Source: a virus. Taken from it: a stretch of DNA of 44,434 nucleotides. The notes under the pieces were generated by a model, which was given only the letters and a program-made list of their open reading frames with translations, ran no database searches and was not told the DNA's origin. The stretch lies in IMG/VR virus record IMGVR_UViG_3300020195_000051, positions 1 through 44,434 of that record; one strand, given 5' to 3'. Both the position numbers and the translations under genes were made by a program. Shown one piece after another: positions 4,181-39,326 of this stretch (position 1 is the first letter of the stretch; each line of letters starts with the position of its first letter).

Positions 4181-4303
4181 ATAATTTCTCGGCGGCGTGG
4201 AAGGACACGCTAGTTACTAAACTGGATGATTGCAGTGAAGGGTGAGGACTCATCTACATGAACACTGCAAGATACGAGGGATTATAAAATGAGAGAAGAA
4301 ACC
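4181..4303 (+). other. Leader region before the glycine-repeat genes
   Basis: No convincing gene lies here. GCGTG and CACGC (about 4195-4210) form a short hairpin around GAAGGA. Two tiny frames (MIAVKGEDSST at 4227 and a nine-codon frame overlapping its stop) lack good ribosome-binding sites. I see no clear promoter. Confidence 0.3.
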
Positions 4304-4435
4304 ATGGATAGCTTAGAAAACGATGGTTTCGGTTACGGTTCCGGCTCCGGTGACGGTGACGGTTACGGTTTCGGTGCCGGTGCCGGTGCCGGTTTCGGTA
4401 ATGGTGACGGTTACGGTAATGGTTACGGAACTTGA
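4304..4435 (+). CDS. Gly-X dipeptide-repeat protein 1, 43 aa
   Basis: After the leader MDSLENDG the protein is an unbroken alternation of Gly with Phe, Tyr, Ser, Asp, Ala or Asn, ending GYGT. An ATG at 4289 is also in frame, but ATG 4304 gives the leader shared with the two related genes downstream (MGSLVLENDG, MTSLENDG) and the shared start context AAACCATG, so I prefer it. AGAGAAG lies upstream at normal spacing. The DNA is a run of hexamers GGT-NNC. No family is recognised. Its composition (aromatic residues in a Gly/Ser/Asp matrix) resembles low-complexity, phase-separating or adhesive sequences, which is inference only. Confidence 0.6.
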   Translation: MDSLENDGFGYGSGSGDGDGYGFGAGAGAGFGNGDGYGNGYGT

Positions 4436-4473
4436 CGGGGATTAACCGCCGAAAGGCAAAACAAGGGAATGAA

Positions 4474-4779
4474 ATGGCAAAAGCAAAGAAGATAAGTAAT
4501 GAGTTCGTAATCGTGCGCGCACACACAGCAGGTGTACACGCGGGGTATCTAGAGAGTCGCACTGGCGATACTGTGGTGCTCTCGCAATCGATCAGACTGT
4601 GGCGCTGGTGCGGTGCAAGTCTGTCCCAAGTGGCCACCACTGGTCCAGCCAAGGGAGATAATAGATTTGGTGTCTCGGTCGTTAAAACTGAAATTGTAAG
4701 CCCTCAAGGTTTTGAAATTGCTACATGTACCGATGCTGCAATGAAAGCCATCCAAGCGGTAAAACCATGGGTAGTTTAG
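4474..4779 (+). CDS. DUF6948-like phage protein
   Basis: ATG 4474 follows AAGGGA; a longer frame from TTG 4432 is less likely. The 101-residue product has the pattern I associate with the DUF6948 phage family: FVIVRAHTAGVHAGYLESR near the N-terminus, TVVLSQSIRLWRWCGASLSQ in the middle, then a beta-rich part and a C-terminal segment TDAAMKAIQAVKPWVV. The family has no known function. The gene's last 13 bases overlap the start of the second Gly-repeat gene. It therefore sits inside the repeat-gene cluster and is probably translated with it. A 12-base stretch near its end (4747-4758) recurs at 5292-5303. Confidence 0.65.
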   Translation: MAKAKKISNEFVIVRAHTAGVHAGYLESRTGDTVVLSQSIRLWRWCGASLSQVATTGPAKGDNRFGVSVVKTEIVSPQGFEIATCTDAAMKAIQAVKPWVV

Positions 4780-4961
4780 TTTTAGAAAACGACGGTTACG
4801 GTTACGGTTTCGGTTCCGGTTTCGGTTACGGCGCGGGTTACGGTTACGGCTCCGGTGACGGTGACGGTTACGGTTCCGGTTACGGTGACGGTGTCGGTTA
4901 CGGTTACGGGTACGGTTCCGGTGAAGGTTACGGTGACGAATTCGGTTTCGGTTTCGGTTGA
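4767..4961 (+). CDS. Gly-X dipeptide-repeat protein 2, 64 aa
   Basis: It starts at an ATG inside the 3' end of the DUF6948-like gene, in the context AAAACCATG shared with the third copy. The leader MGSLVLENDG is followed by strict X-Gly alternation with X mostly Tyr, Phe, Ser or Asp; there is one break (GYGDEFGFGFG) near the end. No Cys, Lys, Arg or Trp occurs in the repeat. It has no signal peptide or hydrophobic segment. The upstream sequence lacks a strong Shine-Dalgarno site, so expression may depend on coupling to the overlapping gene. Confidence 0.6.
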   Translation: MGSLVLENDGYGYGFGSGFGYGAGYGYGSGDGDGYGSGYGDGVGYGYGYGSGEGYGDEFGFGFG

Positions 4962-4970
4962 GGTAAAACC

Positions 4971-5243
4971 ATGACTAGCTTAGAAAATGACGGCTCCGGT
5001 TCCGGTTCCGGTTACGGTTTCGGTTACGGTGCCGGTTTAGGTTTAGGTTACGGTTACGGTTACGGTTACGGTTACGGTAGCGGTTACAGTTCCGGTTTCG
5101 GTGACGGCTCCGGTGACGGTGACGGTTACGGTTCCGGTTACGGTTCCGGTTACGGTTTCGGTGACGGTTACGGATTAGGTTCCGGTGACGGTAGCGGTTA
5201 CAGTTCCGGTTTCGGTGACGGTGAAGGTTACGGTGACGGGTGA
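4971..5243 (+). CDS. Gly-X dipeptide-repeat protein 3, 90 aa
   Basis: This is the longest copy. GAGG lies six bases before ATG 4971, and the leader MTSLENDG matches that of protein 1. The rest is X-Gly alternation with X = Ser, Tyr, Phe, Ala, Leu, Asp, Glu; four consecutive GY units lie near the middle, and SGYSSGFGDG occurs twice, suggesting internal duplication. The gene starts nine bases after protein 2 ends. The three copies differ chiefly in repeat number and order, as expected for sequences that evolve by unit gain and loss. Function unknown. Confidence 0.65.
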   Translation: MTSLENDGSGSGSGYGFGYGAGLGLGYGYGYGYGYGSGYSSGFGDGSGDGDGYGSGYGSGYGFGDGYGLGSGDGSGYSSGFGDGEGYGDG

Positions 5244-38732: not shown

Positions 38733-39230
38733 CTTGTCTGCTTTTTCATGTCATAACAATTAACTATCTTGTTAAAAGATAACACCTTGATTTTATTAGA
38801 CTATTCCCGCTTGGTTAACCCCTGTTAACCCCATGATATCCCTGAGCTATCCCGCCCCAAACATACTATACGTTGTAACCTATTGTATCTTATAGACTAT
38901 CGGCGATCGGCCTATCTCTATACTAGTTGCTATCCGCTGTTTTCGATCACTTTACATAATAACGGTTATCAGACCTTTTCTGCGAAAGGCCAGTGATATC
39001 ATGTAGTTAGCTCGGCCAGCAGGCCACCAGCGAGGGAATTAGCCCGCCAACGCGCTATTGATCCATTGTTAAAACGTCCGCTAGCGCCAGAACGAGCGAG
39101 GATGACTTGAGAGACCAACGGATACGAGTCGCTGCTTTGCCCTTGATTCTCCTGATAACGCGCTGCTAACTCAAAGCTGCGGCGTGCAATTCATTACTGC
39201 GATTCGCAACGACAAGCCGTTCGCCGCAAA

Positions 39231-39326
39231 ATGACAACAAATGCCAACGCAAAAACGCCAACAAACGATCCGCAAAACGACAACAAACGCCAACAAACGC
39301 CAACGCGATTAGCCGCCAATGACAAC
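39231..39326 (+). repeat. Iteron-like short repeats (seven copies)
   Basis: The 8-base word AYGMCAAC occurs at 39231, 39241, 39255, 39277, 39287, 39297 and 39319. Start-to-start distances are 10, 14, 22, 10, 10 and 22, mostly near one or two helical turns. Flanks are A-rich. This is the look of an initiator-binding iteron cluster at a replication origin. Confidence 0.55.

Follow-up and report, generated by a model that had tools for sequence, protein, structure and literature searches.

Eukaryotic Sm and LSm proteins, among them yeast Lsm4 and Sm B/D, carry Arg-Gly low-complexity tails, and Hfq, the bacterial Sm-like RNA chaperone, has a disordered acidic tail. Here we describe a two-gene phage module in which a small protein with a predicted Sm-like fold is accompanied by a chain of glycine alternating with a second residue (Gly-X). 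The folded protein falls into Pfam family PF22253 (DUF6948), whose model comes with neither a function nor a linked Gly-X gene, and no mention of DUF6948 was found in the papers searched. In phages covering much of the diversity of bacteria, the chain goes together with this one small folded protein, a rare case in which low-complexity sequence keeps its composition, frame and gene order and lets length and order vary. An array of the same kind, in the same place as the Gly-X gene behind gp84 of Iodobacter phage phiPLPE, is in print as a DNA repeat, (KMGCCG)35, guessed to be an attachment site (Comeau et al., 2012; PMC3391216). It is read here as a gene, and arrays formerly read as DNA repeats thus become genes.

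The likeness of the module to tailed Sm/LSm proteins lies in the predicted fold, an Sm1-like register and the glycine-rich low-complexity partner. It differs in that the partner is usually supplied in trans from an overlapping gene, is acidic and made of Gly-(Ser/Tyr/Asp), and in that no Sm2 motif was seen; Sm/LSm proteins form rings, whereas DUF6948 is known here as a predicted single-chain model. With Hfq it shares the size class and a predicted Sm-like barrel, but there is no profile similarity, and the Gly-X tail is in trans, rich in Tyr and Gly, and much longer. Compared by composition alone with phase-separating low-complexity proteins, the Gly-X chains fit sticker-and-spacer ideas. No description of the DUF6948-Gly-X pair was found in the papers searched, in keeping with an earlier reading of the window made from its letters alone (the sequence-only reading), and as a system the pair fits no described kind that we found. 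For this reason, and because both an Sm2 motif and similarity to Hfq are lacking, novelty is credited to the module and not to the single gene; should DUF6948 prove to be a true Sm protein, the module would fall within a known kind.

Three Gly-X genes accompany a DUF6948 gene in a viral record

The window analysed is the whole 44,434-base viral record IMGVR_UViG_3300020195_000051. Its gene content includes a terminase, a DNA polymerase, a primase, a Sak4-like annealing protein and an exonuclease, and the module sits in a stretch of small genes ahead of the replication genes. The three short Gly-X genes that the sequence-only reading had claimed are present, with coordinates read from the open reading frames (Table 1), and comparative evidence given below backs them as real genes.

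Table 1. Coordinates of the module in the window.
Feature	Position	Strand	Description
GX array gene 1	4304..4435	+	43 aa; ORF reading, translation, hexamer scan, composition
DUF6948 gene	4474..4779	+	101 aa; PF22253 E 2.9e-17; predicted Sm/LSm-like fold
13-nt overlap	4767..4779	+	array gene 2 ATG from CCA.TGG (Pro-Trp) of DUF6948, through DUF6948 stop 4777-4779
GX array gene 2	4767..4961	+	64 aa; start in DUF6948 3' end, -1 frame
GX array gene 3	4971..5243	+	90 aa; ORF reading, translation, hexamer scan, composition

The leaders of genes 1, 2 and 3 read MDSLENDG, MGSLVLENDG and MTSLENDG; each is preceded by AA(A)ACC, and the gene 2 leader is largely shared by genes 1 and 3. Gene 1 would reach 48 aa if it began at an in-frame ATG at 4289. 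The alternation, first described as strict, is nearly so; gene 2, for example, is interrupted by DEF and gene 3 by YSSG. The claimed absence of Lys and Arg was borne out by a composition count, which gave none in any of the three proteins, together with 6, 8 and 10 Asp plus Glu and 7, 16 and 18 Tyr plus Phe in proteins 1, 2 and 3, respectively. The GGT-NNC hexamer array is likewise as described: GGTNNC four times followed by GGT occurs 24 times in the record, every time within the three genes and on the + strand, and neither the other strand nor the pattern read backwards gave a match in the 44,434 bases. Tandem Repeats Finder reported period 6 at 4325-4428 and 4792-5239. Matches of the arrays to Pfam TrAA12 and KRTAP were below cut-off and judged compositional. 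Elsewhere in the window, a short degenerate tandem repeat with periods 10 and 22 lies at 39224-39304.

SLENDG had been taken for the mark of a protein family. A pattern search of viral contigs for the DNA of this leader followed by Gly-X matched no contig besides the window, and the leader is therefore not a family signature. What marks the family instead is that the array gene overlaps DUF6948 and that Gly alternates with Ser, Tyr or Asp. The window has the defining arrangement of the module, a Gly-X gene that overlaps the DUF6948 stop in the -1 frame with its ATG at -13, and we conclude that the cluster is one case of a widespread two-gene phage module with two additional copies of the array gene.

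DUF6948 is predicted to adopt an Sm-like fold

The DUF6948 product scores 63 bits against a gathering threshold of 27, residues 11-93 aligning with positions 3-85 of the 85-position profile, and by this match it belongs, as an ordinary member, to an uncharacterised Pfam family. Its AlphaFold2 model (pLDDT 93.9) contains five strands, a helix at residues 50-56 between strands 3 and 4, and a C-terminal helix. All 50 PDB matches listed by Foldseek were Sm/LSm proteins or spliceosomal chains of such kind; the matches are weak (E 0.04-0.2), and even the best has to be read in the light of the resemblance among small beta-barrels. Among the viral structure matches were further DUF6948 proteins as well as phage proteins that bear the name Sm-like.

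Profile comparison with archaeal LSm placed the full DUF6948 profile in the Sm1 register with a score of 21.2, above 30/30 column shuffles (maximum 16.6) at a probability of only 17.7%. This alignment spans the Sm1 part only (residues 6-40), with no Sm2 motif seen, and vanishes when the closer DUF6948 subset (alignment A2) is used. No profile similarity to Hfq (PF17209) was detected, the hhalign score lying under those of the shuffles; as a calibration, LSm against Hfq reaches only 1.1% probability in the same set-up. A DUF6948 profile search of PDB sequences returned no Sm protein. Since the sequence support is thin, DUF6948 is said to look like an Sm protein and is not filed as one. Judged mainly from the predicted structure, an Sm-like fold is likely; that the protein binds nucleic acid has about an even chance.

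Gly-X arrays are linked to DUF6948 in phages of diverse hosts

In order to measure linkage from the DUF6948 side, loci were fetched with the DUF6948 protein alone (alignment A2) and an array was sought within 600 nt, a locus being evaluable if at least 150 nt extended beyond the DUF6948 stop. A downstream Gly-X array was present in 69/69 viral loci and in 60/65 loci from bacterial/archaeal assemblies, as compared with 2/69 and 0/65 in upstream controls of equal length. The tie between the arrays and DUF6948, first noticed in a single record, is thus real and strong. Of the 160 loci, 26 were left out because their DNA ends within 150 nt of the stop, as would be expected if arrays break assemblies. 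The full DUF6948 alignment is too diverse for a pattern search, and the closer subset was used in its place; because the A2 seeds were taken from array-bearing contigs (the genomic set reaching down to 44% identity), the linkage figure applies to A2-like members of the family. The five array-negative bacterial/archaeal loci mostly keep the overlapping open reading frame, with an array that is short, degenerate or missing.

Searches that began with the array gave a similar picture. With DUF6948 required within 1.2 kb upstream on the same strand, 79/93 loci with GGC arrays and 76/93 with GGA/GGG arrays carried it. A scan of viral contigs for GGT arrays found at least 120 loci; among the matches listed, 89 had arrays mixing Tyr/Phe with Ser/Asp, and in 62 of these 89 the fetched stretch also held DUF6948. 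Checked as whole records, 44/50 array-bearing records encode DUF6948 over the Pfam cut-off. Another 39 records, 24 of them array-bearing and 15 from simple or other-repeat loci, contained it in 17 cases, one of which (L075) came from the second group. A tblastn search with the array protein gave no matches, an empty result that is expected with the low-complexity filter on.

The same pair is therefore found in many viral and bacterial/archaeal contigs, and the idea of a family limited to one phage does not hold. The module was read in Pectobacterium phage Koroua, Vibrio phage IKEMa6-1, Chlorobiaceae phage CV-1-33, Manatee Spring podovirus MW202898 and Iodobacter phage phiPLPE, and a DUF6948 match alone was noted for six further Pectobacterium phages and Dickeya phage Setonix. 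E. coli genomes gave no DNA-level match to a Pectobacterium-phage DUF6948. Typical DUF6948 matched only 16 of 50,697 deposited phage records, and at least 575 stretches of uncultivated viral contigs match it; the pair has been overlooked so far, though many uncharted bacterial viruses carry such overlapping small genes. In CV-1-33, the annotated frame of gene 25 (L130:2789-3034) encodes MAMALA repeats; the frame that overlaps DUF6948 encodes Gly-(Asp/Ser/Tyr), and the annotated frame is thus probably wrong. Because arrays break assemblies and can receive the wrong frame or, as behind gp84 of phiPLPE, no annotation, the module is under-counted.

A screen of neighbouring genes revealed no conserved partner besides the Gly-X gene, the largest family occurring in 7 loci, and gene context therefore gives no function. 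In the loci looked at, the module lies near early genes for recombination and replication and away from structural genes. Small phage genes often counter host functions, and an early position of this kind, together with the net negative charge of the Lys- and Arg-free window chains, would suit an acidic mimic of nucleic acid that inhibits a host defence or enzyme, with DUF6948 as its partner or chaperone. We regard this as improbable: the charge density is modest (10 acidic residues among 90 in gene 3), neither DUF6948 nor the C-terminal domain described below matches PADLOC families, and the same sequence logic recurs in phages whose hosts are very diverse.

The array start codon is maintained within DUF6948

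The array ATG lies at exactly -13 from the end of the DUF6948 stop in 58/69 viral and 45/60 bacterial/archaeal loci. Close to its end DUF6948 has a Trp codon, TGG, which together with the third base of the preceding codon supplies this ATG. A stands before TGG in 132/149 cases (89%), as compared with 27% at third positions elsewhere, and these base counts indicate that the out-of-frame array ATG is under selection. A Shine-Dalgarno match upstream of the ATG is enriched weakly (mean 3.9 versus 3.4 in synonymous shuffles) and is for that reason given no weight.

Programmed -1 frameshifting, which would yield a DUF6948-Gly-X fusion, is a possible alternative. Its frame is compatible, but the inspected junctions show no evident conservation of a slippery site, and what they do conserve is the ATG. 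DUF6948 is fused in frame to the array in 3/364 distinct domains (L069, L114, L379). These natural fusions, the low complexity of one partner and the lack of a match to PADLOC defence families make it extremely unlikely that the two genes form a toxin-antitoxin-like or killer-immunity pair, a reading that small overlapping genes in phages across many hosts would otherwise invite.

Selection acts on the array protein while its length changes

Within a single locus the Gly codon is near-constant (0.30 bit) and residue X is variable (1.82 bits). Different loci use different Gly codons: about 100 have GGC, about 20 have GGT, and the others have GGG or GGA. At the third position of X, the majority base is C in 64 loci, T in 61 and G in 4. 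Residue X is Ser (34%), Tyr (27%) or Asp (22%), followed by Asn, Phe and Thr; Ala (0.7%) and Val (0.2%) are nearly absent, even though Ala is one base change from Ser and Asp codons. Loci thus differ in their codon for Gly and in the last base of X but agree on Ser/Tyr/Asp as X, so that it is the protein on which selection acts. The opposite, a unit kept in preference to its residues, would be expected of a conserved DNA element. GTGP- and GPGT-type arrays initially assigned to L184, L234, L286 and L288 were rejected as wrong-frame readings; the true arrays are Gly-(Ser/Tyr/Asp) with GGG codons.

The arrays change length by whole units, as had been anticipated from the hexamer structure. In Neisseria gonorrhoeae, three prophage copies in each of two genomes have essentially identical DUF6948 DNA and arrays of 95 or 97 codons that differ by whole Gly-X units and in X. 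L252 and L258 share 93% identical DUF6948 DNA, yet one has a short and the other a long array. The gonococcal loci, L300-L305, are chromosomes filed as plasmids, and their X is mostly Asn.

Gain and loss of whole hexamers, like the published attachment-site suggestion for phiPLPE, could be taken to mean that the arrays are non-coding DNA repeats serving, for example, as attachment or recombination sites. This is very unlikely, because residues and frame persist although the unit varies by locus (GGC, GGT, GGG or GGA, with C or T as the last base of X), the out-of-frame ATG is selected, and fusions to DUF6948 are in frame. Missing homologues or frequent frameshifts had been named at the outset as marks of non-coding DNA; the outcome was the opposite, homologues keeping both frame and residues.

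The identity of X also bears on a structural role. The crystalline repeat of silk fibroin alternates Gly with Ser, Ala or Tyr, and a silk-like or adhesive protein forming beta-sheet fibres inside or outside the cell might be imagined. Tight sheets are disfavoured by the 22% share of Asp at X and by the scarcity of Ala, none of the three window proteins has a hydrophobic leader, and the genes are linked to early and not structural genes in the loci looked at, which makes such fibres quite improbable. The adhesive role mentioned in the sequence-only reading found no support.

Some array proteins carry a conserved C-terminal domain

The 96 complete array genes have a median length of 86 aa. In 25 of them, most of which lie in gut contigs of Bacteroidota and Bacillota, the array is followed by a tail longer than 40 aa that constitutes a conserved domain of about 145 aa at the C-terminus. 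The domain (L249:5399-5836 and 31 relatives in alignment A3; also L296:3-524) contains the motifs FAHG ... WHxxLTGSC. It was modelled with a pLDDT of 92 and matched no Pfam, NCBIfam or PHROGs family and, credibly, no PDB fold. Riemerella phage CRP5 has a distant copy that follows leucine-rich-type repeats.

A conserved domain behind an array whose length and order shift quickly is what would be seen if the Gly-X chain were a passive, freely drifting spacer that tethers, for example, a short N-terminal segment to the C-terminal domain, and L251 retains the domain with almost no array. Against this, a long tail that could be tethered is missing from about three quarters of the complete array genes, and a spacer needs neither Tyr at about a quarter of X positions nor a near absence of Ala. 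We consider a purely passive spacer unlikely.

A proposed low-complexity tail supplied in trans

The reading that we prefer starts from what the loci display: linkage, overlap, selection on X, fast whole-unit length change and rare natural fusions. Gene A (DUF6948) would encode a small Sm/LSm-like beta-barrel, expected to oligomerise and to bind RNA or single-stranded nucleic acid, and gene B a putatively disordered acidic chain of Gly alternating with Ser/Tyr/Asp. Because its ATG is embedded in the 3' end of gene A, gene B is probably made by translational coupling. The Gly-X chain may then serve the Sm-like protein as a low-complexity tail encoded in trans, its aromatic contacts, spaced by Gly-Ser and Gly-Asp, promoting multivalent assembly into a condensate-like RNP and/or tuning nucleic-acid release. 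In some gut prophages the chain additionally bears the domain of about 145 residues.

The absence of Lys and Arg and the richness in Tyr/Phe of the window chains weigh for this proposal; the acidic character of the chain, unlike the Arg/Gly tails of eukaryotic Sm/LSm proteins, weighs against it, as do the five relatives in which the overlapping open reading frame holds a short, degenerate or missing array. Condensate formation, raised in the sequence-only reading, is plausible, and the Sm-like fold predicted for DUF6948 adds to its plausibility. Taken as a whole, the proposal of an Sm-like nucleic-acid-binding protein whose assembly is driven or tuned by a Gly-X tail in trans is tentative, with a chance somewhat short of even, and assembly or condensation by the chain is, by itself, possible at best. 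That the module amounts to a phage system spanning many phyla, in which an Sm-like protein and a co-translated chain of rapidly evolving length build a viral RNP condensate early in infection, as a phage counterpart to tailed Sm/LSm proteins, we hold to be rather unlikely. The module nevertheless gives a testable handle on phage condensates built from tail-in-trans proteins.

Multiple arrays and other repeat genes

Several arrays are present in about one locus of ten, the window included. A second Gly-X family was found in viral contigs (L094, L102, L127, L105, L125, L384, L389, L422, L434, L475, L479, and L097 in a 361 kb record); its leader ends in PVG (or LVG), and a basic tail, for example TRTRRR, is often present. 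Gly-X alternation is common to both families, and genes of the second often stand in tandem, in some loci in clusters of up to six; it differs in its own leader, its basic tail, an X richer in Asn, and the absence of DUF6948 nearby. Upstream of DUF6948 in one locus (L141:643-1278), a gene encodes a SYGVNxS-type hexapeptide-repeat protein that has a homologue in one other locus.
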